Assembly: GCF_900172215.1 (NCBI RefSeq)
Contig: NZ_FWFP01000012.1
Span: forward strand, 1 to 64,000
Origin: Ruegeria meonggei
Lineage (GTDB): Bacteria; Pseudomonadota; Alphaproteobacteria; Rhodobacterales; Rhodobacteraceae
Reading direction: 5' to 3'
Length of the DNA stretch: 64,000 nucleotides
Positions 5,976 to 57,334 of this stretch are shown here, piece by piece. The translations under genes and the position numbers were made by a program. Numbering within the stretch: position 1 is the stretch's first letter; the number at the start of each line of letters is the position of its first letter. The notes beneath the pieces are model-generated. The model made no database searches. It saw only the letters and a list, made by a program, of their open reading frames with translations, and was not told the DNA's origin.

Positions 5976-6975
5976 GGACCAACGCTCTGTCGCCCGGCTT
6001 GCGTTGGGTGTTACCGGCGTCTTTTCATTGGGCCTATTTCTTGGGTGGCCGCTTGCCGTCGTTGGGGCGGTGTTTGCCGCACTGTTTTTGCAGGCGCCCG
6101 CCGCATTGCCTTTAACAGCATTTGCTAAGCTTTTTGTCTTCTCTATTGGGTTGATGGTCATTTCGTTCCTGTTGTCGTCAATCTTCTCACCATATCCGCT
6201 TGTATTTCTGATGCTGGTGGCGATTGGAATAATCCTGTCTTTCATGTGGTCAGTTTCGGGTGCCGGAGTTTTACCCGGTGTCATAGCTCTCATGGGCGCA
6301 TTGATGATTCCGAACCTGGTTCTGCAATCACAGGACCTGGCTTTGGTGCTCGTGTATTGGATACCGTTGAACCTGCTGTTCGCAGGCTTCGTATCGACAC
6401 TGATGTTCGTGTTGATACCCGCAGAACCTCAAACGGCGGCTCAAAAAAAAGCTGCAGCGCCGCCGAGTTTCGACCCACATCGCCGAATTGTCAGAATGTC
6501 TCTTGTCACAGTGCCGTTTGCTATGGCTTTTTTTGTTTCCGGCGCGTCTGCATTACTGGTTCTGTTCTTTGTCGCGCTCCTGAGCCAGCAACTTGCGGCG
6601 ATGCCTGCCGCGGGTAAAACGGTTGCAAAAGCTATGCTGACGGCAAATCTGCTTGGGGCGGCAGTATCCATCATTTGCTATGAGATAAACGTAATAGCTC
6701 CGGTTATTCTGACGCCCATTTTGCTGTGTTTTTTCTTTTGCCTGACACTCGGAGCACTTGGAAAATCTCAAGTTCCGCTCGCCGCCGCTGCCGGCTCCGC
6801 TATTACAACGGCTCTGATTGTATACGGCGGGTCGGTTGCACCGTTTTCAGACGAGGCTGACGTCAAGAGCATCACTCGAGTTTTACAAGTTGCCAGCGCC
6901 GCTTTCTTTGTAATCATCGCATATTTCGTGGTGGATGAATTCTGGCCGGAAAAAGAGCGCCAGGCGGCTCAATGA
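5965..6975 (+). CDS. DUF2955 domain membrane protein (FUSC-like exporter)
   Basis: A 336-residue protein with two blocks of roughly five to six TM helices each, separated by a hydrophilic linker (about 155-175, with AEPQTAAQKKAAAPP). Length, layout and the HlyD neighbour match DUF2955 proteins, relatives of the fusaric-acid resistance/aromatic exporter (FUSC, AaeB) group. The start ATG at 5965 lies within the end of the HlyD gene; an earlier GTG at 5944 has no ribosome binding site. In AaeAB the HlyD protein and the FUSC protein form an aromatic-acid efflux pump, so efflux of a small organic acid is the best guess. Assignment to DUF2955 is from recognition, not a search. Confidence 0.75.
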   Translation: MRTEDQRSVARLALGVTGVFSLGLFLGWPLAVVGAVFAALFLQAPAALPLTAFAKLFVFSIGLMVISFLLSSIFSPYPLVFLMLVAIGIILSFMWSVSGAGVLPGVIALMGALMIPNLVLQSQDLALVLVYWIPLNLLFAGFVSTLMFVLIPAEPQTAAQKKAAAPPSFDPHRRIVRMSLVTVPFAMAFFVSGASALLVLFFVALLSQQLAAMPAAGKTVAKAMLTANLLGAAVSIICYEINVIAPVILTPILLCFFFCLTLGALGKSQVPLAAAAGSAITTALIVYGGSVAPFSDEADVKSITRVLQVASAAFFVIIAYFVVDEFWPEKERQAAQ

Positions 6976-7110
6976 AGTTAGTTGCGATGTGGCGTGGTTC
7001 AGAAAGAAGTAGAGTTTCCAGTGTGACCCCCTTTTATTTGATTTATCCGGTCCGAAAGAAGTCAGCTTTGTCCCGCATTGCTGACATTCAGACTTCGTAC
7101 CTTTGAAATG

Positions 7111-7134
7111 AAAAGGGGCGCTCTGACGAGCGCC
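7111..7134 (-). terminator. Rho-independent terminator of tkt
   Basis: On the minus strand GGCGCTC (7128-7134) pairs with GAGCGCC (7117-7123) across a 4-nt loop. It is followed by CC and a TTTT run (complement of 7111-7114). It lies 30 nt past the tkt stop codon. Confidence 0.75.
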
Positions 7135-7163
7135 TCCCGTTTCTTTTCTGTCAAAATGCTGGA

Positions 7164-9185
7164 TCAGCCCAGTAATCCCCTGACCTTGGCAACTGTCGCC
7201 TCGGCGGTGATGCCGAAGTGTTTGTACAGTTCACCCGCGGGTGCCGAGGCTCCAAAGCCGGACATGCCAATAAAGCCTGCCTTGGCTTCGCGGCCGCGTT
7301 CGCCCAGCAGCCAGCGATCCCAGCCTCCGGCGCGGACTGCAGCCTCGATGCCGACACGAACGGGTCCGCCGGGCAGTACGCGTTTGCGATAGGCTTCGTC
7401 CTGCTGCGCGAAAAGTTCCATACAGGGCATAGAGACGACGCGGGTGCCAATACCCTCCGCCTCGAGCATGGCCTTGGCTTCCATCGCCAGCGAAACTTCG
7501 GACCCGGTGGCAATCAGGATGGCCTGACGCTTGCTTTCAGCATCAGCCAGAACGTATGCGCCCTGAGCGGTCAAGTTTTTGGCCTTGTGGTCCGTACGTA
7601 CCGTTGGAACGCCCTGACGGGTTAGTGACAGGACCGAAGGGCAGTCTTTGATAGTCAGTGCCAATTCCCAGGCTTCGGCGGTCTCAATCACATCGGCGGG
7701 GCGAAACACAAGTGTATTTGGCGTCGCGCGCGAAATGGCCAGATGTTCAACCGGCTGGTGGGTCGGGCCGTCTTCGCCCAAGCCGATCGAGTCATGGGTC
7801 ATGACGAAAACGGTGGGCACTTTCATCAGCGCCGCCAACCGCATGGACGGGCGGGCATAGTCGGTGAAAGCCATGAACGTGCCACCATAGGGGCGGATGC
7901 CGCCGTGCAGTGCCATGCCGTTCATCGCGGCGGCCATGCCGTGTTCACGGATCCCGTAGTGGATGTAACGGCCCTTGCGGTTTTCCGGTAGGAACACGCC
8001 CATATCGGCGGATTTGGTGTTGTTCGATCCAGTCAGATCGGCCGAGCCGCCGACGGTCTCGGGCATGATCGGGTTCACGACGTTCAGAACCTTCTCAGAC
8101 GCCGCGCGGGTCGCCAGTTTTGGCTGATCTTCCGACATCAGTTTTTTAAAGGTACGGATCGCCCCAGCCAGCTTTTTGGGGGCCTCGAACGCATAGGCGC
8201 GGTTGAACTCGGCCTGTTTGCGGTCGGATATGGTTGCAAAACGCTCTTCCCATTCGGCGCGATCAGAGGCGCCACGGGCCCCGATGGCCTCCCAGGCAGA
8301 TTTCACATCGGCCGGGATTTCGAAGGCGTCATGTGGCCAGCCGTAACCGTCTTTCGCAGCTTTCAGCTGCCCCTGATCGGTCAAGGCGCCGTGGCCTTTC
8401 GACGTATCCTGTGCCGCGTGACCCAACGCAATGTGGCTTTCGCACGCAATCATCGTCGGCTTGTTGGATTCTTTTGCCTGCACGATGGCTGCATCGATGG
8501 CTTTGGGATCGTGTCCGTCAATCTCAATCACATGCCAGCCTGACGCTGTAAAACGGCGCACCTGATCAGTGCGGTCGGCGATGTCGACTGTGCCGTCGAT
8601 GGTGATATTGTTGTTGTCCCAGAAGACGATCAGCTTGCTCAACTCGTGTCGACCAGCCAGTGTGATGGCCTCTTGGCTGACACCCTCCATAAGGCAGCCG
8701 TCGCCGGCGATTACATAAGTATAGTGATCGACGATCTTCTTGCCGTATTGCGCGCGCTGAATTTCCTCGGCCATGGCAAAGCCAACAGCGTTCGAGATAC
8801 CCTGACCCAACGGGCCAGTGGTCGTCTCGATCCCGTCAACCAGGAAGTTTTCGGGGTGGCCTGCAGTCTTTGCGCCCAACTGGCGGAAATTCTTGATTTC
8901 ATCCAGTGTTACATCGGCATTGCCCGTCAGGTATAGCAGCGAATACACCAGCATCGAGCCATGGCCCGCCGACAGGATAAACCGATCGCGGTCAGGCCAG
9001 TTCGGGGCCGAGGCGTCGAATTTGAGGTGCTTTTCAAACAGGACAGTCGCAACATCGGCCATGCCCATCGGCATACCGGAATGGCCGGAATTGGCGGCGG
9101 CGACGGCGTCAAGGGTCAGGGTGCGGATGGCGGCCGCCTTGTCCCAGTGTTCGGGGTTGGCATTGCGCAGCGCAGTCAGGTCCAC
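7164..9185 (-). CDS. tkt: Transketolase
   Basis: A 673-residue thiamine-diphosphate enzyme of the pentose phosphate pathway, which moves two-carbon units from ketoses to aldoses. The N-terminal ThDP domain carries the GDGCLMEG...WDNNNI signature (about 153-187). The middle domain has the catalytic [14 protein letters not shown] segment near 410, and a C-terminal transketolase domain follows (about 540-665). Full length and typical of the family. The start is GTG at 9183-9185, supported by AAAGGA 8 nt upstream and by the normal N-terminus ([19 protein letters not shown]). It is divergent from the coiled-coil/zapA cluster, as in other Rhodobacteraceae as far as I recall. Confidence 0.97.
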
Positions 9186-48871: not shown

Positions 48872-50125
48872 TCAAAGGAAATGAAATCCCATTCCAATCG
48901 CAGCAACAACGGTCAGAGTTGTTGCCATTCCAAATTTAAACTTAAAAATCAATAGGCCAGCGATCACCGTCAGGATCAAAGCCCTCAGGTCCAGGCTTGT
49001 AAGCTCCGGCCACGGTAGGGTCACTGGCCCCCAGGACTGGTTGGGAACTTCTGCGAAAAGAACGTTCAAACCAAACCAAACGGACAGGTTAAGAATCACA
49101 CCTACGACAGCGGCGGTGATCCCGTGCAATGCCGCAGACAAACGAGGGCGCGCCGCCAATTGATCCAGGTAAGGGGCCGCCAGAAATATCCAAAGGAAAC
49201 AAGGGACAAAGGTTGCCCATATTGCGACCATACCAGCAGCTATCGCAAGCGTTGCCCCACCCGATATCTGACCCGTCAGCATGGCGACAAATTGGGTTAC
49301 CAGAATCAAGGGGCCGGGCGTGGTCTCGGCCAGACCCAACGCGTCTATCATCTGATCGGTACTGATCCACTGGTGTTTGTCCACGACAGTCTGGGTCATA
49401 TAGGCCAGCACGGCATAAGCGCCGCCAAAGGTCACAACTGCCAAACGGGCAAAGAACCATCCCAAATCACTGAGCAGTTTCTGCCCCGATAGGTTGAGCG
49501 CAAGCAGTGGCCCAAGCCACAACATCAACCACAGGGCACCCATTCGGATCATGCCCGTCACCTTGGGAGCCTGGGGGATGTCTGAGGTCTGAGGCTGTCC
49601 CTGAAACGTGACAAATCCCCATATTGCCGCGACCATAATAATCAGCGGGAACGGTAGGTTCAGCGCAAAGATGGCCAGGAATCCCAGCCCGGCAATCGCC
49701 TTGTGCTGCGTATCTGTAAGCGCCTTGCGCGACAGGTTTCTAAGTGCCTGCAGCACGATGACAATGACCGTTGCCTTCACCCCCAGAAACCCGGCTTGAA
49801 CCAAGGGCAGGTTACCAAACGCCGCATAAAGACCGACAAGGGCTGCGATGATAAAGGCACCGGGCAGGACAAACAGGGCACCGGCGATCAAGCCACCGGT
49901 GACGCCGCGCAGTCGCCAACCTGCATAGGTGGCCAATTGCATAGCTTCGGGGCCGGGTAACAGCATGCATAGCGACAGCGCCCGCAAATATGTCTGTTCG
50001 TCCAGCCAGGGGCGTTTTTCTACCAGTTCCTGATGCATCAATGAGATTTGGGCGGCGGGGCCTCCGAAGGAAAGCAGGCCAATACGCCCAAACACACGGA
50101 CCAATTCTGAACGTGTCGGTGTCAT
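48872..50125 (-). CDS. chrA: Chromate efflux transporter ChrA
   Basis: A 417-residue CHR-family transporter with two homologous halves. Each begins with the FGRIGLLSFGGPAAQIS-type motif (residues 10-26) or its partner FARLAVVTFGGAYAVLAYM (about 224-242), and there are about ten TM helices. ChrA exports chromate across the inner membrane. It starts in a 4-nt overlap with the upstream chrB-like gene, giving a two-gene resistance operon. Confidence 0.93.
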   Translation of the reverse strand: MTPTRSELVRVFGRIGLLSFGGPAAQISLMHQELVEKRPWLDEQTYLRALSLCMLLPGPEAMQLATYAGWRLRGVTGGLIAGALFVLPGAFIIAALVGLYAAFGNLPLVQAGFLGVKATVIVIVLQALRNLSRKALTDTQHKAIAGLGFLAIFALNLPFPLIIMVAAIWGFVTFQGQPQTSDIPQAPKVTGMIRMGALWLMLWLGPLLALNLSGQKLLSDLGWFFARLAVVTFGGAYAVLAYMTQTVVDKHQWISTDQMIDALGLAETTPGPLILVTQFVAMLTGQISGGATLAIAAGMVAIWATFVPCFLWIFLAAPYLDQLAARPRLSAALHGITAAVVGVILNLSVWFGLNVLFAEVPNQSWGPVTLPWPELTSLDLRALILTVIAGLLIFKFKFGMATTLTVVAAIGMGFHFL

Positions 50126-50937
50126 GCCTTGCGATCCGTCGGCCAGTCATGCCCTTCCTCGGACCCGTCCCGTGCCCAACGGTAAAGCGCATCATAAAGG
50201 TGCAGCCCTGCCGCAAGGTTTTGGTGGTCGTCGCGGTATTGCCGGGACAAGCCTACCGACACGGCCAGCAGCCCTGCCGCCTCGGGCGCAAGGTTGTGGC
50301 GGTTGGTATCTGCCGCCCGAACAACCGTGGCGAGACGGTCCAGGGCTGGGGTGTGCAATGCGAACTCATCAAGCATGGTGTCGAAGGTGCAGTGGTCCTC
50401 TCGGTGGGTCCAAAACGTGTTTTCGATATCAAACGGCGTGGCGCCAAAAACCTCGGCAACCGAGGTGACTTCGGATGGGGCCACAAACAGGAAACGCGCC
50501 GTGGGATCGACAAAGCGGCGGATCAGCCAGGGGCAGGCAATACGATCGATTTTGGGGCGATGACGCGTGACCCAGAGTGTCGTGCCCTCAACGCGTTCGG
50601 GCAAAGCGTTGGCGGGGACACGCGGCGCATCTGTTATGGCACGCCAACCGTACATGCCACCCTCCAGATACTCGGCGTTACATCCTTCGCTGCGCAGCCA
50701 TGAGACCAAGCCCTGACTGAGCTTTTTGCCTTTTTGGCAAACGATAACGGCCGAACGGTCGCCGATCAGACCGACAAGGCCCTGAAAGTCCTGCGCTGCA
50801 TGGCGCCTGGATCCAGGGATCAGATAGGGATCAGCTTCAAAGTCGGGGTCCAGACATATGTCGATCAAAACCGGTGCCTGAGGCGTTCCGATCAGTCGCA
50901 ACAACTGCTTTGGGGTAATTGAGTTTGGCGCGGGCAT
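50122..50937 (-). CDS. ChrB-domain chromate resistance protein with rhodanese domain
   Basis: A 271-residue fusion: a rhodanese-like domain (about 8-105, with active-site Cys in VIVCQKGKK and the GGMYGW end) and a ChrB C-terminal domain (about 115-265, with WVTRHRPKIDRIACPWLIRRF and FWTHREDHCTFD). ChrB proteins sense chromate or support resistance; the rhodanese part could link it to sulfur or sulfate supply, since chromate enters as a sulfate analogue. It lacks the ChrB N-terminal DNA-binding region, so it is probably not a classical repressor. Coupled to chrA by ATGA. Confidence 0.85.
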   Translation of the reverse strand: MPAPNSITPKQLLRLIGTPQAPVLIDICLDPDFEADPYLIPGSRRHAAQDFQGLVGLIGDRSAVIVCQKGKKLSQGLVSWLRSEGCNAEYLEGGMYGWRAITDAPRVPANALPERVEGTTLWVTRHRPKIDRIACPWLIRRFVDPTARFLFVAPSEVTSVAEVFGATPFDIENTFWTHREDHCTFDTMLDEFALHTPALDRLATVVRAADTNRHNLAPEAAGLLAVSVGLSRQYRDDHQNLAAGLHLYDALYRWARDGSEEGHDWPTDRKA

Positions 50938-51067
50938 AGCATGTCTCCTGGTTTAGGCGGATACATGCGAAACTTGGGCTGACGCCTCACGGGGCGTTCG
51001 CAATCTTACCCCATGGCCATTGCTTACGTGCAAGCGCCATGAGGGTCAAGATTACGTGGGCATTACA

Positions 51068-51499
51068 TCAGGCCCATTCCAGCCTTTGACCTGTCATGCA
51101 AACGGGCAGAGTGTCTTCAGGAAACTGGCCAAGTTGTTCGAACAAAGAGATGAAGTCGAACTGGTTATATGCCTCGACCATGCGCCCATCACGTACACGG
51201 GCAATAACGCTGCCAGCGGCCTGCAATGGGGCGCCGTTGTCCGCACGGGTCGTTTTCACCTTGATAATGGCAGACACCCAATCGTCCTGTTCAATAACCT
51301 TGGGCAGTTCCACATGAATCTCTCCAAGGACATGCCGAAACGCCATGACAAGATCGCGGAATTCATCGGCGCCAACCTGCATTTCCGGGATTATTCCTTC
51401 GGCCATCGTGTCTGGCGCAAAATACTGGTCGATTGCGTCGGTATCTCCCTTTTCCCAGACCTCGGCATACCAGTCCCTGAGTAAATCCGCGTGTGCCAT
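51068..51499 (-). CDS. NTF2-like (SnoaL-type) protein
   Basis: A 143-residue single-domain protein of the NTF2/SnoaL fold: LLRDWYAEVWEKGDTDAIDQYFAPD helix-strand start, GADEFRDLVMAFRHVLG helix, and the curved sheet with WVSAIIKVKTTRAD and GRMVEAYNQFDFISLFEQLG. Such proteins are ester cyclases, isomerases or ligand-binding proteins; no function can be assigned. The start at 51499 has AAGGAG 7 nt upstream. Confidence 0.75.
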   Translation of the reverse strand: MAHADLLRDWYAEVWEKGDTDAIDQYFAPDTMAEGIIPEMQVGADEFRDLVMAFRHVLGEIHVELPKVIEQDDWVSAIIKVKTTRADNGAPLQAAGSVIARVRDGRMVEAYNQFDFISLFEQLGQFPEDTLPVCMTGQRLEWA

Positions 51500-51597
51500 C
51501 CCAGCTCTCCTTTTCCTGTCGCCGTCAGCATGAGACGAAAGAATGAAAAAACTCTGAACGTGAACAAGACGTTGGGAATACAGCAAACATTTGGGTG

Positions 51598-51932
51598 GAA
51601 ATGCAGGTTTCTGTTGCCAGGTACCTGCGAACCCCGCCTTACGCGGCTAGGCGCAAGGGCTTAAGTTTCGGTCTTGCTACTGCTTACGCAGCAACTGCAA
51701 CCGGAGCACGATTGTCATTTGCAATTGTACTTTTTGGGCCGGTACGGTGGCACCCCGCCGAAACAAAGCTAACCCCTTTAGACGTTCGTCGATCCTATTT
51801 CGGCCCCCCGATTCTGACGAAATCCTCAAATGAAGGATACCTCCAGAAGGTATATGGTGGAGCCGCCGGGTACCGCCCCCGGGTCCGATCCGCTTATTAC
51901 GAGCGCGTTTATGTCCATAGTCCCGAAGGACA
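51598..51932 (-). ncRNA. ssrA: Two-piece (permuted) tmRNA
   Basis: A circularly permuted alphaproteobacterial tmRNA on the minus strand. The acceptor piece comes first (about 51932-51855) and ends in an encoded ACCA after CGGCTCC. A 47-nt spacer follows (51854-51808), which is cut out. The coding piece begins GGGGCCG at 51807, which pairs with CGGCTCC to make the 7-bp acceptor stem, and continues with the family motif AGGATCGACG. The tag frame is 51722-51684 and reads ANDNRAPVAVAA then TAA. The 3' end near 51600 is approximate. tmRNA rescues stalled ribosomes and tags the products for ClpXP; an SspB adaptor gene is nearby. Confidence 0.93.
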
Positions 51933-51937
51933 TACCC

Positions 51938-51966
51938 TATATAGGTGAGCATGAAGCTGGATGCAA
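51938..51966 (-). promoter_or_regulatory. Sigma-70 type promoter of ssrA
   Basis: On the minus strand TTGCAT (51966-51961), a 17-nt spacer, and TATATA (51943-51938), placing the start of transcription near 51931, at the first bases of the acceptor piece. Match to consensus is good at both elements and spacing is ideal. Confidence 0.75.
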
Positions 51967-52006
51967 ACCGGGAATTTCTCACCCCGGTCGGTTATAAAAC
52001 AATATC

Positions 52007-52369
52007 TTACGCAGATTTGTTGATGTTCGCCAAAATCAACCACAGAGCAAGAACCAGTTCGATTCCACCAAATATCAGCGCCTTGGCCAAAGGTGGGTTG
52101 TCCAAAACAACCGACACAAACCGGCCAAGGGCGGCGCCTGCGTAAACCACGCCCAGCATTGCATAGGCCATGGGGTTGTTCAGCCACAAAACGGCCACCC
52201 CGGTGACTACGAACAACCCGCCGACTGACGCACGCATCTCACTTAGGCCCATATTGCTGGTGGTTGGGGCCAGATCCAATGAGGTGGCCGTCCAGGCTGG
52301 GGCCAGAAATCCGAACAGACCAAAGACGATGGTCAGGATGGCAGCAGCTATGTTCAGGGCAGTGATCAT
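52007..52369 (-). CDS. DUF4345 family membrane protein
   Basis: A 120-residue, four-TM protein (helices about 3-22, 42-62, 67-87, 98-118) of the DUF4345 family, function unknown. It begins 11 nt after the GntR stop codon and is probably cotranscribed with it. I chose the ATG at 52369 (GAGGTG upstream); the longer frame from 52441 would run into the GntR gene. Confidence 0.75.
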   Translation of the reverse strand: MITALNIAAAILTIVFGLFGFLAPAWTATSLDLAPTTSNMGLSEMRASVGGLFVVTGVAVLWLNNPMAYAMLGVVYAGAALGRFVSVVLDNPPLAKALIFGGIELVLALWLILANINKSA

Positions 52370-52379
52370 CGACACCTCA

Positions 52380-53111
52380 TCACGCGGGTTTGCGTCGCTG
52401 TTGGGCGACATCCTGCGCCAGTTTACGCGTGTAGTTTTCAAGCTTTACAAGTGTTGCGTCCACTCTGTCACCGTCACGGTTTTCCAGCGCATCCGCGATT
52501 TGGGTATGCAGAACGATGATTTCTTCGCGGGACCGGGCGGTGAAAGTGATCATGTTCATCAAGGGCTGCATCGCCTCAACTGCACCGGCGAGTTGATAAG
52601 ACAGAACCGGGTTGCCCGCACCGTCGACAAGCGCGCGATGGAAGGCGACGTCCGAAGCGCAGAAAGCCTCATCCGTCAGGCCAGGCTGGGCTTGGCGAAA
52701 AATCTCGGCGCGCATGGTGGCCAGTTGATCGGCGGTCCGGCGGTGGGCCGACAGCGGTGCGCAGGCCCGTTCCAACGCATAGCGCGCCTCGCACGCGGTA
52801 TCGAAGCTGACCGCATTCATCGACAAAAGCAGCGTCGAGGTGGTGATCTGCTGGGTATAGGCATCTTCAAACCCCAGCCGATTGACAAATGCACCGCCCG
52901 TCGCGCCCCGTTGCGTGCGTATAAGCGATTGTGCAGCAAGGCGTTTCAGCGCTTCGCGCACGGTGGGCCGGGAAACGTTGAACTGATCAGACAGTTCCGC
53001 CTCGGACGGCAATCTCTCATCCACGATCAATTTGCCCGAGACGATTGCATCCCGAATGGCCTGAGCGATTTGGGCTGATAAATCCGCAGGTTTCTGGGGG
53101 TCGATTTTCAT
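52380..53111 (-). CDS. GntR family (FCD) transcriptional regulator
   Basis: A 243-residue regulator: winged HTH (about 10-75, with the GntR pattern LPSEAELSDQFNVSRPTVREAL) and an all-helical FCD effector domain (about 95-235, with FHRALVDGAGNP and the late His in EIIVLHTQIADAL). It is divergent from DUF2182-DUF1326-DinB-dmdA, so it probably controls that operon, and GntR regulators near dmdA are known in roseobacters as far as I recall. The start at 53111 is preferred over 53138 because the latter lies next to the operator repeats and lacks a ribosome binding site. Confidence 0.88.
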   Translation of the reverse strand: MKIDPQKPADLSAQIAQAIRDAIVSGKLIVDERLPSEAELSDQFNVSRPTVREALKRLAAQSLIRTQRGATGGAFVNRLGFEDAYTQQITTSTLLLSMNAVSFDTACEARYALERACAPLSAHRRTADQLATMRAEIFRQAQPGLTDEAFCASDVAFHRALVDGAGNPVLSYQLAGAVEAMQPLMNMITFTARSREEIIVLHTQIADALENRDGDRVDATLVKLENYTRKLAQDVAQQRRKPA

Positions 53112-53136: not shown

Positions 53137-53166
53137 ATTTGTCTGACATTTAAAAGTCTGACATTT
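53137..53166 (+). promoter_or_regulatory. Tandem GntR-type operator sites
   Basis: GTCTGACATTT occurs twice in direct repeat, at 53141-53151 and 53156-53166, with a 15-nt period. The first is part of TTGTCTGACAT (53139-53149), close to the TTGTC-N-GACAA form of FCD-family GntR operators. It lies in the gap between the divergent GntR and DUF2182 genes. Confidence 0.6.
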
Positions 53167-53196: not shown

Positions 53197-53988
53197 GTGA
53201 GTCGCACAGTTCTCCGCAACGGATTCTGGTTGGGATTCTACGCCCTGATCCTGTGGTCGTGGTGGATGATGTTCACCATGAGCCGCGATATGGATCTGGA
53301 CTGGGTCGGCCGCCCCGGTCCGATGGGCGAGGCCATGCGCGCCATGGACCCCCGCATGGACATGTACATGCCGATGGCTGAGTTTGGCCCGTTGTTCTGG
53401 ATGTGGGCGATCATGATGGCGGCCATGATGTTGCCTACTCTGGTGCCAACCCTGCGCAGCTATGATGACCTGATCCGCAGCGCCAATGGCACGCGGGCAG
53501 GGTGGATCGGCGTTCTGACCGGGTATTTCATCGTGTGGGTAGGCTTCGCAGCGCTGATTACAGGTGTGCAACTGATCCTGCTTTTTGGCGGCGTTGTGGA
53601 TATGCTGGGTATTGCCAAATCAACCTACCTGTCGGGCGGTCTGTTGATTATCGTCGGCGCATTCCAGTTCACCCGCGTTAAAGAAGTGTGTCACGGCGTC
53701 TGTCATTCACCCATGTCCTATTTTCTGGGCCATTGGAAAACCGGTTTCGCAGGCGGGCTGCGGATGGGCCTTGGGCTTGGCACCTTCTGTGTCGGCTGCT
53801 GCTGGGGGTTCATGGCTCTTGGCTTTGTCGGCGGTGTCATGAGCCTGTTGTGGATGGGCGCAGCGACCTTTTTCATGGTGTTGGAAAAACTACCCCAGAT
53901 CGGGCACGCTATCACGCGCCCGCTGGGATTTGCATTGATCGCAGGCGGGCTTTTTTTGCTCGTCTACCCCTTAGCTTTCGGAGGATAA
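53197..53988 (+). CDS. DUF2182 membrane protein, Met/Cys-rich
   Basis: A 263-residue protein with about seven TM helices, of the DUF2182 family (described as predicted metal-binding membrane proteins). It is very rich in methionine (MDPRMDMYMPMAEFG and MWAIMMAAMMLP, about 51-85) and has two cysteine clusters, EVCHGVCHSPM (about 168-178) and FCVGCCWGFM (about 199-208). These look like soft-metal ligands, perhaps copper, but no function is proven. The GTG at 53197 has GGGAGGA about 5 nt upstream; an earlier TTG at 53170 has none. First gene of the operon leading to dmdA. Confidence 0.85.
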   Translation: MSRTVLRNGFWLGFYALILWSWWMMFTMSRDMDLDWVGRPGPMGEAMRAMDPRMDMYMPMAEFGPLFWMWAIMMAAMMLPTLVPTLRSYDDLIRSANGTRAGWIGVLTGYFIVWVGFAALITGVQLILLFGGVVDMLGIAKSTYLSGGLLIIVGAFQFTRVKEVCHGVCHSPMSYFLGHWKTGFAGGLRMGLGLGTFCVGCCWGFMALGFVGGVMSLLWMGAATFFMVLEKLPQIGHAITRPLGFALIAGGLFLLVYPLAFGG

Positions 53989-53992
53989 GCTT

Positions 53993-54625
53993 ATGGCTAA
54001 CATGGAAATTACTCCCGCAGATTGGTCCATCAAGGGTGAGTTGATTCTGAACTGCTCGTGTGAACTGTTTTGCCCTTGTGTGGTCTCTCTGGGGGCGCAC
54101 CCTCCGACCGAGGGGCATTGCCACGCATGGATGGGGATCGTCATTGATGAAGGGCATTATGAAGGCGAAGACATCTCGGGCATGAATGTCGGGCTTCTGG
54201 TCGATATCCCGGGTCGCATGGGAGAGGGTCAGTGGAAGGTCGCGGCCTATGTCGACGAACGGGCCACGGACGCAGCCTATGACGGTCTTCTGCAGATTTT
54301 CAGCGGTCAGGCCGGGGGGACAACAAGCCTGTTCACCATGCTGGTCAGCGAAATCATCGGTGCCGAGCGCGCACCGGTTCAGATCGAGCGGGACGGCACC
54401 AAACGCCGCATCACCATCGGACGTAAAATCCAGGGCGAAATTGAAATGCTGGCCGGTTCCAACCCTGAAAACCCGGTAATGGTGTCGAACTCGAAATACT
54501 GGATGGGGCCAGATATCATCGTAGCCCGCGGTACAAAATCCAAGGTGCGTGATTACGGCCGAGTCTGGGATTTTGGCGGCAAATCGGCAGAGATTTGCCC
54601 CATCGACTGGCATGGGCAAAAGTGA
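53993..54625 (+). CDS. DUF1326 family protein with CSC...CPC motif
   Basis: A 210-residue soluble protein of the DUF1326 family. The N-terminal ILNCSCELFCPC motif (about 19-30) puts four cysteines in a dozen residues, followed by a His in EGHCHAWMG, which is a probable metal or thiol site. The rest is beta-rich. It starts 4 nt after the DUF2182 stop with AGGATAAG upstream and shares one base with the next gene (TGATG). DUF2182 and DUF1326 occur as neighbours elsewhere, suggesting one function; that function is unknown. Confidence 0.85.
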   Translation: MANMEITPADWSIKGELILNCSCELFCPCVVSLGAHPPTEGHCHAWMGIVIDEGHYEGEDISGMNVGLLVDIPGRMGEGQWKVAAYVDERATDAAYDGLLQIFSGQAGGTTSLFTMLVSEIIGAERAPVQIERDGTKRRITIGRKIQGEIEMLAGSNPENPVMVSNSKYWMGPDIIVARGTKSKVRDYGRVWDFGGKSAEICPIDWHGQK

Positions 54626-55131
54626 TGATCACAGCCAGTTTCGCCCAAGAGATGGCGCGGTATAATCACTGGCAAAACAGCCAGTTGAAAGAGTTTCTTG
54701 TGGCATTGTCACCCGAGGAGCTAACCTGCGAACGGGGGGCCTTCTTTGGCTCGATCATGGGGACCGCAAATCACCTGTTATGGGGCGACTGGATCTGGAT
54801 GTCGCGCTTTGACAATGGGCAGGGTCCTGGCGGCGGCATCCCAGCCAGCAAATCTCTGTGCGCGGACCTGTCGGAATGGTTGCCTCTGCGCGACACGGTG
54901 GATCAGCGCATCACCGAGTGGGCAACCGCTTTGCCAGACGGGGTGTTGACCGGGCCATTCACCTGGTTTTCAGCGGCTAAAAATGAAGATGTCACAAAGC
55001 CTTATGCGCAATGTGTCATTCATTTTTTTAACCACCAGACACATCACCGGGGACAATTGCATCAAATGCTGACCGAAACCAGATCAGCCGCCCCCGTCAG
55101 TGATCTGGTCTTTCTGCCAGAGGAGGTCTAA
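54625..55131 (+). CDS. DinB family protein
   Basis: A 168-residue four-helix-bundle protein of the DinB/YfiT superfamily. The metal-binding histidines are in ANHLLWGDWIW (about 49-59) and in QTHHRGQLHQM (about 145-155), the normal DinB triad. Members are divalent-metal, often thiol-dependent transferases or isomerases. It is coupled to DUF1326 by a 1-nt overlap, and dmdA starts 0 nt after its stop (TAA at 55129-55131, GTG at 55132), with the dmdA ribosome binding site inside its last codons. Confidence 0.85.
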   Translation: MITASFAQEMARYNHWQNSQLKEFLVALSPEELTCERGAFFGSIMGTANHLLWGDWIWMSRFDNGQGPGGGIPASKSLCADLSEWLPLRDTVDQRITEWATALPDGVLTGPFTWFSAAKNEDVTKPYAQCVIHFFNHQTHHRGQLHQMLTETRSAAPVSDLVFLPEEV

Positions 55132-56235
55132 GTGGCTCAGATTTCATTGTCCCGTCGCTTGCGCCGCACGCCTTTTTCTGAAGGGGTCGAGGCGGCTGGT
55201 GTCAAAGGGTTCACTGTCTATAACCGAATGCTCTTGCCGACTGTGTTTGAAAGCGTGCAGGCAGATTACCGACATCTGAAATCCCATGTTCAGGTCTGGG
55301 ACGTCTCCTGCGAGCGGCAGGTTGAGCTGCGCGGCCCAGACGCGGCCCGATTGATGCAGATGCTGACCCCGCGCGATTTGCGGGGCATGTTGCCCGGACA
55401 GTGTTATTACGTGCCCATCGTGGATGAAACCGGCGGCATGCTGAATGATCCGGTGGCGGTGAAGTTGGCCGAGGATCGGTGGTGGATATCGATTGCTGAC
55501 AGTGACCTGTTGTTGTGGGTCAAGGGCATCGCCAACGGATACCGTCTGGATGTGCTGGTCGATGAACCGGATGTTTCGCCGTTAGCCATTCAGGGGCCCA
55601 AAGCAGACGAGTTGATGGCACGTGTCTTTGGGGACCGTGTCCGCGATATCCGTTTTTTCAAGTTCGACATGTTCGAATTTGAAGGTCGTGATCTGGCGGT
55701 GGCCCGTTCTGGGTATTCCAAACAGGGCGGGTTCGAGATTTATGTCGAGGGATCCGACATTGGAATGTCGCTGTGGAACGCTTTGTTTGCGGCTGGCGAA
55801 GATCTGCAGGTGCGCGCCGGTTGTCCCAACCTGATTGAGCGGATCGAGGGCGGATTGCTGTCTTATGGCAATGACATGACCGATTACAATACGCCTCATG
55901 AATGTGGGCTGGGCAAATTCTGCAACACGCACACGGCGATTGGCTGCATCGGTCGGGACGCGCTGTTGCGCGTGGCCAAAGAGGGGCCGGTTCAGCAGAT
56001 ACGCCCAATCACAATCCACGGAGATGAGGTTCCCCCCTGTGATCGCCCCTGGGCAGTGTATGCTGGCGGTAAGCGGGTCGGGCAGGTCACCTCGGCTGCG
56101 TGGTCCCCGGACTTTGAAAGCAACGTTGCGATCGGGATGATGCGGCTCAGCCATTGGGATGCGGGCGCGGAGGTTGAGGTCGAAGCCCCGGACGGCACGC
56201 GCCGCGCCACAGTCAGAGAGGCGTTCTGGATTTAA
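55132..56235 (+). CDS. dmdA: Dimethylsulfoniopropionate demethylase DmdA
   Basis: A 367-residue protein of the aminomethyltransferase (GcvT) fold. DmdA moves a methyl group from DMSP to tetrahydrofolate, giving methylmercaptopropionate, the first step of the demethylation route in marine roseobacters and SAR11. I recognise it as DmdA rather than GcvT from the RRTPFSEGVEAAGVKGFTVYN opening (in parts, residues 9-29), the WDVSCERQVELRGPDA block (about 58-73), and the neighbouring acuI gene, as in Ruegeria pomeroyi. GTG start with AGGAGG 6 nt upstream. Full length (the Ruegeria enzyme is about 364 aa). Confidence 0.93.
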   Translation: MAQISLSRRLRRTPFSEGVEAAGVKGFTVYNRMLLPTVFESVQADYRHLKSHVQVWDVSCERQVELRGPDAARLMQMLTPRDLRGMLPGQCYYVPIVDETGGMLNDPVAVKLAEDRWWISIADSDLLLWVKGIANGYRLDVLVDEPDVSPLAIQGPKADELMARVFGDRVRDIRFFKFDMFEFEGRDLAVARSGYSKQGGFEIYVEGSDIGMSLWNALFAAGEDLQVRAGCPNLIERIEGGLLSYGNDMTDYNTPHECGLGKFCNTHTAIGCIGRDALLRVAKEGPVQQIRPITIHGDEVPPCDRPWAVYAGGKRVGQVTSAAWSPDFESNVAIGMMRLSHWDAGAEVEVEAPDGTRRATVREAFWI

Positions 56236-56338: not shown

Positions 56339-57334
56339 ATGTTCAATGCATTGGTGATGGACAAAGACGAAGACGGCGGCCTGGCCAGCGCGTCGGTGAA
56401 GCAGTTGTCACTTGAGGATCTGCCTCAGGGCGAGGTCACAGTGGCTGTTGAGTATTCAACGGTGAACTACAAAGACGGGCTATGCCTGTCACCAAAGGGG
56501 GGTGGTCTGGTCCGCACCTATCCGCATATCCCCGGCATCGATTATGCTGGAACGGTCGAGGCGTCCTCGGATGATCGCTATAAGCCCGGCGACAAAGTGG
56601 TTTTGACCGGCTGGCGCGTGGGTGAGGCGCATTGGGGCGGGTACACGCAAAAAGCGAATGCGCGGGCCGATTGGTTGGTGCCTCTGCCCGAGGGTCTGAG
56701 CTCCCGTCAGGCGATGGCCGTGGGGACCGCAGGTTTTACCGCGATGTTGGCCGTTATGGCGCTGGAAGATCACGGGATGACGCCCGGGCACGGGCCGGTT
56801 CTGGTGACCGGGGCCGCGGGTGGGGTTGGATCGGTTGCCACGGCTATTCTGGCTAATCTGGGCTACGAGGTTGCCGCCGTCACTGGGCGCCCTGAGACGG
56901 GTGACTACCTGAAATCTCTTGGGGCGACGACAATTGTGCCCCGAGAGGAACTGAATGAAACCACCAAACGCCCGCTGGAAAGCGAATCCTGGGCCGGATG
57001 TGTGGATGCCGTTGGCGGAGAGATGCTGGCGCGCGTACTGGGTCAGATGAAATACGGAGCGTCTGTCGCGGCCGTAGGTCTGGCTGGTGGCGCGGGCCTG
57101 CCTGCGACGGTTATCCCGTTCCTGCTGCGCGGGGTCAATCTGTTGGGTATCGACAGTGTGATGCAACCCTATGACAACCGCCTCCGGGCCTGGCAACGTA
57201 TCGCCACGGATTTGCCGATGGAAAAGTTGGACGCCATGGTGCACCCCGCAACGCTGGGTGATCTGCCCCAATTGGGGGCCGATATCCTGAAAGGTCAGGT
57301 CAAAGGCCGTGTGGTAGTGGACGTAAACGCCTGA
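56339..57334 (+). CDS. acuI: Acryloyl-CoA reductase AcuI
   Basis: A 331-residue medium-chain dehydrogenase/reductase without the Zn-binding cysteines. It has a GroES-like N-terminal domain (about 1-130) and a Rossmann domain with GAAGGVGSVATAIL (about 157-170). AcuI reduces the toxic acryloyl-CoA, formed from DMSP cleavage, to propionyl-CoA with NADPH. The NYKDGLCL segment (about 43-50) and the linkage to dmdA are typical. About 100 nt separate it from dmdA, with the repeat in between; cotranscription is likely but the hairpins may lower its expression. Confidence 0.93.
   Translation: MFNALVMDKDEDGGLASASVKQLSLEDLPQGEVTVAVEYSTVNYKDGLCLSPKGGGLVRTYPHIPGIDYAGTVEASSDDRYKPGDKVVLTGWRVGEAHWGGYTQKANARADWLVPLPEGLSSRQAMAVGTAGFTAMLAVMALEDHGMTPGHGPVLVTGAAGGVGSVATAILANLGYEVAAVTGRPETGDYLKSLGATTIVPREELNETTKRPLESESWAGCVDAVGGEMLARVLGQMKYGASVAAVGLAGGAGLPATVIPFLLRGVNLLGIDSVMQPYDNRLRAWQRIATDLPMEKLDAMVHPATLGDLPQLGADILKGQVKGRVVVDVNA

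Follow-up and report, generated by a model that had tools for sequence, protein, structure and literature searches.

A PpoB2-DUF1326 gene pair with a possible role in copper handling in the dimethylsulfoniopropionate-demethylation operons of Rhodobacteraceae

Introduction

Demethylation of dimethylsulfoniopropionate (DMSP) sets the share of algal sulfur that is turned into methanethiol instead of the climate-active gas dimethyl sulfide. In a stretch of 64,000 nucleotides (nt) from Ruegeria meonggei (contig NZ_FWFP01000012.1, positions 1 to 64,000), referred to here as the window, the DMSP demethylase gene dmdA and the acryloyl-CoA reductase gene acuI are preceded by genes for a PpoB2/DUF2182 membrane protein, a DUF1326 protein and a DinB-superfamily protein. 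Here we compare this locus with described systems and follow the first two genes, the PpoB2-DUF1326 pair, through the family Rhodobacteraceae. Our tentative reading, possible though somewhat short of probable, is that the pair forms a two-protein unit handling Cu(I) and thiolates within a GntR-controlled DMSP-demethylation regulon.

The closest described operon is dmdA-acuI of Ruegeria pomeroyi (SPO1913-SPO1914), which holds the same enzymes in the same order. According to the excerpts of PMC3338564 used here, its reporters are induced by DMSP and by acrylate, whereas methylmercaptopropionate (MMPA) has no such effect, and acuI mutants show sensitivity to both acrylate and DMSP. Unlike that operon, the one in the window is preceded by PpoB2-DUF1326-DinB; the same excerpts name no such genes, and the word 'GntR' is absent from the text of the paper.

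Although the initial annotation of the window listed DUF2182 as uncharacterised, its Pfam family (PF09948) takes the name PpoB2, copper chaperone, from a copper-transfer protein for tyrosinase in Marinomonas mediterranea, which was the first member of COG5486 to be given a role (PMC2855505, in excerpt). The two proteins belong to the same Pfam family, and both are membrane proteins and operon partners of an enzyme gene. The M. mediterranea protein serves tyrosinase, whereas its counterpart in the window is partnered by DmdA, AcuI and DUF1326, with no known copper enzyme in the operon. A copper chaperone gene is also linked to methylated-sulfur metabolism in the mtoX-SCO1-mauG operon, but that chaperone is of another family, and the SBP56 proteins tested at the loci described below are distant paralogues. 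The SBP56 family includes MtoX, a copper-dependent methanethiol oxidase (PMC5739008, in excerpt). In a literature search whose reach stopped short of bioRxiv and most subscription papers, we found no described role for DUF1326, no GntR-type regulator of dmdA, no metal need of DMSP demethylation before methanethiol oxidation, and no paper describing DUF2182 and DUF1326 (COG5486 and COG5588) together with dmdA.

The pair next to dmdA and acuI

The survey covered 149 genomes of the family, one per genus with one exception. The demethylase gene was called from NF009133 matches above the cut-off, with lower-scoring DmdA-like paralogues uncounted, and acuI from matches at E 1e-60 or better, the curated AcuI cut-off being passed in only 14 of the 149 genomes. 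A sample of named loci, consisting of the best 80 of at least 587 confirmed DmdA matches, leans to close relatives.

DmdA was found in 64 genomes (70 copies), PpoB2 in 82 and DUF1326 in 79. PpoB2-DUF1326 is the unit, since 91 of the 94 DUF1326 copies lie within 2.5 kb of PpoB2. Both genes stand within 5 kb of 48 of the 70 DmdA copies, in 48 of the 64 genomes, and DUF1326 occurs in 53 of the 64 genomes with dmdA against 26 of the 85 without (Fisher p = 1.4e-10). The 91 pairs divide into 42 near dmdA and acuI, 6 near dmdA only, 17 near acuI only and 26 near neither, some of them at contig ends. The initial annotation had proposed counting how often these genes adjoin dmdA, and saw an objection in their lying usually far from it with no DMSP link; instead, 48 of the 91 pairs are by dmdA and 17 more by acuI.

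Among the best 80 named loci, the pair lies within 4 kb of dmdA at 73, DinB at 52 and a GntR homologue at 76, and the order PpoB2-DUF1326-DinB-DmdA-AcuI recurs at 50. The three-gene module drawn by the initial annotation did not survive this comparison, because DinB occurs at such loci where the pair is missing (L076, L086, L184), and the pair is often unaccompanied by DinB. DinB comes and goes, and is a facultative, dispensable member of the operon.

According to their annotations, two plasmids, from Marinovum algicola and Antarctobacter, have this arrangement together with dmdA as well. On M. algicola pMaD9 the annotated order is the pair, an acyl-CoA synthetase, DmdA, an alcohol dehydrogenase at the place of acuI, and an SBP56 protein. 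In the Marinovum record, the names given to the two genes ahead of the ligase are 'Transmembrane protein involved in DMSP breakdown' and 'protein involved in DMSP breakdown'; an annotator had thus already noticed the association. The DMSP linkage of the pair is family-wide, and probably regulatory.

Outside the family, DUF1326 was present in 31 of 299 genomes. Eight of 20 such loci share one neighbourhood, which holds no DmdA or AcuI match, and no common neighbourhood was seen among the remaining 12. In two outside-family genomes (loci L236 and L241), DUF1326-PpoB2 comes directly after a DUF938 methyltransferase-like gene and a second gene common to both, which in L236 is a short-chain dehydrogenase.

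A candidate GntR operator

A tandem site, TTGTCTGACATTTAAAAGTCTGACATTT, lies between the GntR gene and the operon, and the motif TGTCNGACA recurs in 98 of 112 GntR-divergent intergenic regions, with loci fetched twice counted twice. A scan of 30 genomes with WWGTCWGACAWTT found 81 exact matches, compared with 15 when the motif was reversed as a control; these genomes were hand-chosen, mostly for the pair or SBP56, and overlapping matches on the two strands were counted twice. Of the 57 merged sites, 18 lie by the pair, 2 by a dmdA that has no adjoining pair (the site is kept there in G001 and G038), 2 before SBP56 genes, 1 at acuI and 6, assigned by hand, before acyl-CoA ligases.

R. meonggei itself has three exact half-site matches, two at the window operon and one just upstream of a ligase gene. 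The best model for this ligase is NF005426, 3-(methylthio)propionyl-CoA ligase, at 810 bits with a cut-off of 822. Across 13 genomes of the genus the scan returned 50 matches against 10 for the control. The double site was confirmed between GntR and PpoB2 in 12 of them; the thirteenth (G447), whose locus is outside the 12 checked, has two matches 15 nt apart, like the rest. A single site stands about 75-140 nt before a DmdB-type ligase gene in 11 of the 13, that of R. meonggei included.

Because the pair's operon and the DmdB-type ligase have this site in common, a GntR-controlled DMSP-demethylation regulon very likely includes the pair. The DMSP link suspected in the initial annotation is thus borne out twice, by the site before the ligase and by the 48 DmdA copies that have the pair nearby. 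The GntR protein of the locus is the predicted ligand of the tandem site, and both the site and its regulon link are new here.

The site also stands beside a different acyl-CoA synthetase in three other genomes. At L258, L260 and L261 it lies between an acyl-CoA synthetase-like gene and a divergent gene for a membrane protein that by eye resembles an exporter of small molecules. The synthetase of L258 and L260 belongs to the PRK08162 family, as does the ligase inside the Marinovum dmdA operon, and the enzyme of these three loci is possibly a further ligase of the DMSP regulon.

Replacement of the pair within the operon

A quick tree of DUF1326 was built from 92 rows (91 of 172 kept, plus the window) and carried long-branch warnings. 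All 51 rows linked to dmdA or acuI fall into one well-supported group of 60; the other nine come from other places, some of them contig ends, and three (L227, L229, L230) are not from this family. Two types of the pair, A and B, can be told apart, with type B defined as a set of 22 PpoB2 rows; the longest-branch split of the DUF1326 tree, a subgroup of 7 rows, was left unused. On trees of the 63 loci kept from 73 after thinning, among them 20 of the 22 type-B loci (61 loci for GntR), the A/B label changes once for PpoB2, once for DUF1326, 7 times for DmdA and 9 times for GntR.

Two Marivita loci, L081 and L063, illustrate the pattern. Their proteins are 91% (GntR), 43% (PpoB2), 53% (DUF1326), 88% (DinB), 97% (DmdA) and 98% (AcuI) identical; the pair was swapped while the surrounding operon, with flanks 88-98% identical, stayed. 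Single parts of the cassette may be exchanged on their own as well, since between L063 and L062 DUF1326 is 68%, DinB 64% and PpoB2 92% identical.

Exchange in place would be expected if something of this kind is wanted at the locus, and it speaks against a pure hitch-hiker. The initial annotation had allowed for a module that merely joined the dmdA operon, and in that case a mobile copper pair would have settled by chance in the acuI/dmdA locus and have no part in DMSP metabolism. Its presence in unrelated places (26 of the 91 pairs, the eight outside-family loci with another neighbourhood, and plasmids) agrees with such a passenger, as do dmdA operons that lack it (7 of the best 80 named loci). 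Conservation across genera would then be unexpected, as would replacement with the flanks kept and a site common to the DmdB-type ligase, so that the idea is weakened; we keep it as an unlikely alternative.

Conserved residues and a possible copper function

The motifs reported in the initial annotation, CHGVC and CVGCC in DUF2182, CSCELFCPC in DUF1326 and a His triad in DinB (H50/H137/H141), are all present. In PpoB2, for which hydropathy indicates about 7 hydrophobic segments, M69, M73, M77 and M78 as well as C165, C169, C198, C201 and C202 are invariant among 42 homologues, all of them from dmdA loci. The window protein also has a Met-rich loop (residues 29-64) that is absent from the second PpoB2 type. 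DUF1326 has the pattern CxCxxxxCPC plus a further Cys, C43; across 38 sequences including distant members, C27, C29 and C43 are invariant and C21 and C23 at least 90% conserved. A structure search for solved relatives of DUF1326 and PpoB2 gave no match.

DinB proteins (22 sequences, one apparently frameshifted) keep H137 and H141 invariant and H50 at 90% or more. With its His triad and weak profile matches to PDB 3di5 and 2qe9, the window protein resembles the DinB/YfiT superfamily, from which it differs in being an optional member of its operon; we know of no function for this branch. At L181 (G043) an apparently frameshifted DinB gene occupies 6735-7169, with PpoB2, DUF1326, DmdA and AcuI frames on either side.

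A soft-metal role for PpoB2-DUF1326 is plausible, given the copper-transfer family of PpoB2, its invariant Met and Cys residues and the five conserved Cys of DUF1326. The soft-metal or thiol-handling set proposed by the initial annotation is to that extent retained for the pair, with DinB no longer part of it. The metal is probably copper.

In the proposed mechanism, GntR would bind the tandem TGTCWGACA-type operator before PpoB2-DUF1326-DinB-dmdA-acuI and a single copy of the site before the gene for the DmdB-type methylmercaptopropionate-CoA ligase, and induction would lead to the demethylation enzymes and the metal-handling pair being made together. The Met/Cys-rich PpoB2 may then move or hand over Cu(I) at the inner membrane, while the five-Cys DUF1326 may carry or buffer it in the cytosol. 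Methanethiol would act as a strong Cu(I) ligand and acryloyl-CoA as a thiol alkylator, and copper would be kept available, not free, while both disturb the thiol pool. DinB would be a separate, optional metal-dependent enzyme that follows the locus. The gene order with its conservation, the pairing, the common site and the conserved ligand residues can be read from the sequences; what we infer from them are co-transcription, the contact between this GntR and the site, copper as the metal, the direction of its transfer and the physiological reason.

Several observations weigh against this reading. Fourteen of the 64 genomes with dmdA have no pair beside dmdA or acuI, which means that demethylation can do without it. 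Seventeen pairs are near acuI but away from any dmdA, and 15 of these come from genomes that have no dmdA at all. Only 5 of the 17 loci were found to have a GntR homologue, some of the loci being cut off by the end of a contig. A further 26 of the 91 pairs are near neither gene, a few being at contig ends. Among the 57 operator-like sites of the 30 genomes, 28 are near none of the neighbours tested, and on the DmdA tree strong branch support makes only 2 of the 7 exchanges necessary. Finally, the induction reported for R. pomeroyi agrees better with a role on the acrylate side than with one on the methanethiol side.

SBP56 neighbours

The copper dependence of MtoX (PMC5739008, in excerpt) makes SBP56 proteins at these loci candidate clients of the pair. 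An SBP56 gene follows GntR at 10 of the best 80 named loci (one split into two frames) and is found at the locus in 6 of the 12 checked genus genomes and in G043. On pMaD9 it lies two genes after DmdA. The candidate site occurs just before SBP56 in G072 and G126. G136 has an SBP56 gene with an unpaired PpoB2 as its neighbour, next to open reading frames that by eye resemble formaldehyde- and sulfur-oxidising enzymes. Among genomes that lack dmdA, SBP56 is present in 4 of the 15 whose pair is at acuI and in 5 of the 70 others, a weak association (p = 0.048).

The pair could accordingly be a dedicated metallation system for an SBP56-family, methanethiol-oxidase-like protein downstream of DmdA, but this is unlikely. 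Nine of the locus proteins reach 103-156 bits against the MtoX equivalog cut-off of 650, a failure that removes them as proven methanethiol oxidases; true MtoX occurs in 3 of the 149 genomes, and R. meonggei has no match at E 1e-60. The overall co-occurrence of SBP56 with the pair (p = 5e-7) was set aside as evidence since it vanishes within dmdA genomes (32/18 against 8/6, p = 0.76). Of the 65 genomes with the pair at dmdA or acuI, 29 have no such SBP56, and G066 has SBP56 after dmdA with no PpoB2 match. Near the SBP56 gene of R. meonggei (L190), a search for the site with up to 2 mismatches gave 4 matches where 4.48 were expected. SBP56 can be one client of the pair, not a general one.

Directly after SBP56 at L190 (8663-9334; genome G000, contig C8) and at L181 (10834-11526) lies a gene for a membrane-type protein with the motif G-x-NPGMGWPLAVS-ALME. 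It has no Pfam match at E 0.001 (L181) or 0.01 (L190).

The acrylate side

At the 17 acuI-only loci the pair precedes or adjoins acuI, several having the order PpoB2-DUF1326-DinB-acuI. Together with the acrylate response of R. pomeroyi, these loci suggest that the pair could serve acryloyl-CoA stress besides or instead of methanethiol. If the pair, with DinB, serves the acrylate side, AcuI would clear acryloyl-CoA, the Cys-rich and DinB proteins would handle the thiol or metal-thiolate damage done by this electrophile, and dmdA would merely be a neighbour under shared acrylate-responsive control. Relatives of DinB include thiol-handling metalloenzymes, which would suit such a task. Induction by acrylate and not MMPA, and the sensitivity of acuI mutants to acrylate and DMSP, point the same way (PMC3338564, in excerpt).

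Other results do not fit the acrylate explanation. Six pairs, one of which is at the end of a contig, are near dmdA but have no acuI within 5 kb, and the site stands before DmdB-type ligases, which act at a methylmercaptopropionate step. Where dmdA is absent from the genome, the pair shows no association with the DMSP lyase family PF16867 (6 of 15 against 19 of 70, p = 0.36), and the lyase did not explain the acuI-only loci. We regard a function confined to the acrylate side as rather improbable, though the best of the alternatives. At one locus (L180, in G014), DUF1326 and acuI are separated by a dmdA-like remnant that is spread over more than one frame and shares about 40% identity with the window DmdA, which suggests decay of dmdA while the pair and acuI remain.

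These results also bear on the protective or metal-supply role against methanethiol that the initial annotation envisaged. Its DMSP link stands, while a purely methanethiol-copper form is weakened by the 17 acuI-only pairs, the response of R. pomeroyi to acrylate and not MMPA, and the disappearance of the SBP56 co-occurrence within dmdA genomes. The wider Cu(I)/thiolate reading, in which both methanethiol and acryloyl-CoA disturb the thiol pool, remains the one we prefer.

Organization of the locus in the window

The features of the locus are collected in Table 1. PpoB2 and DUF1326 are separated by 4 nt, DUF1326 and DinB overlap by 1 nt (TGATG), and DinB and dmdA adjoin with 0 nt between them, exactly as first described; acuI starts 103 nt downstream of dmdA. 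The four genes taken as one translation unit are thus PpoB2, DUF1326 and DinB running into a true dmdA. The GntR gene is divergent from them on the minus strand and lies outside the unit. AcuI falls just below the cut-off of its own equivalog model (426 bits, cut-off 440). In the best 80 named DmdA loci, adjacent DUF1326 and DinB genes overlap by 4 nt in 24 of 50 cases and by 1 nt in 14, counts that rest on script-chosen start codons; the coupling exceeds chance. PpoB2-DUF1326-DinB-dmdA-acuI are probably co-transcribed. On the minus strand, a string of GntR, DUF4345, SnoaL-like and ChrB/rhodanese-like genes (50122-53111) recurs beside many Ruegeria dmdA loci.

Table 1. Features of the dmdA locus in the window, with the evidence for each.
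Feature	Position	Strand	Evidence
GntR/FCD-type regulator	52380..53111	-	Pfam GntR and FCD matches
Proposed tandem GntR operator, TTGTCTGACATTTAAAAGTCTGACATTT	53139..53166	+	Conserved motif in GntR-divergent intergenic regions
PpoB2/DUF2182 membrane protein	53197..53988	+	PF09948, 203 bits (cut-off 28.7); GTG start, TAA stop
DUF1326 protein	53993..54625	+	PF07040, 179.9 bits
DinB-superfamily protein	54625..55131	+	PF05163, 81.3 bits
dmdA, DMSP demethylase	55132..56235	+	Equivalog model NF009133, 694 bits (cut-off 410); GTG start
acuI, acryloyl-CoA reductase	56339..57334	+	TIGR02823, 448.5 bits (cut-off 297)

Implications for DMSP metabolism

The operon offers a functional context for DUF1326. 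A conserved site that joins dmdA, acuI, a DmdB-type ligase and a copper-type pair makes the questions of regulator and metal directly testable. In its most far-reaching form, which we think unlikely, DMSP demethylation in the Rhodobacteraceae would have a copper economy of its own: a GntR regulon of DmdA, the DmdB-type ligase and AcuI would include a PpoB2-DUF1326 relay for Cu(I), shielding the cell from copper-methanethiolate chemistry and loading a cytosolic SBP56-type methanethiol oxidase where one is present. If that were true, cytosolic copper chaperones would gain a new class in DUF1326. In many marine roseobacter-type bacteria the DMSP genes share an operon, and apparently a regulator, with two genes that resemble copper handlers, and a role for copper or thiols in this step of the ocean sulfur cycle thereby becomes testable.

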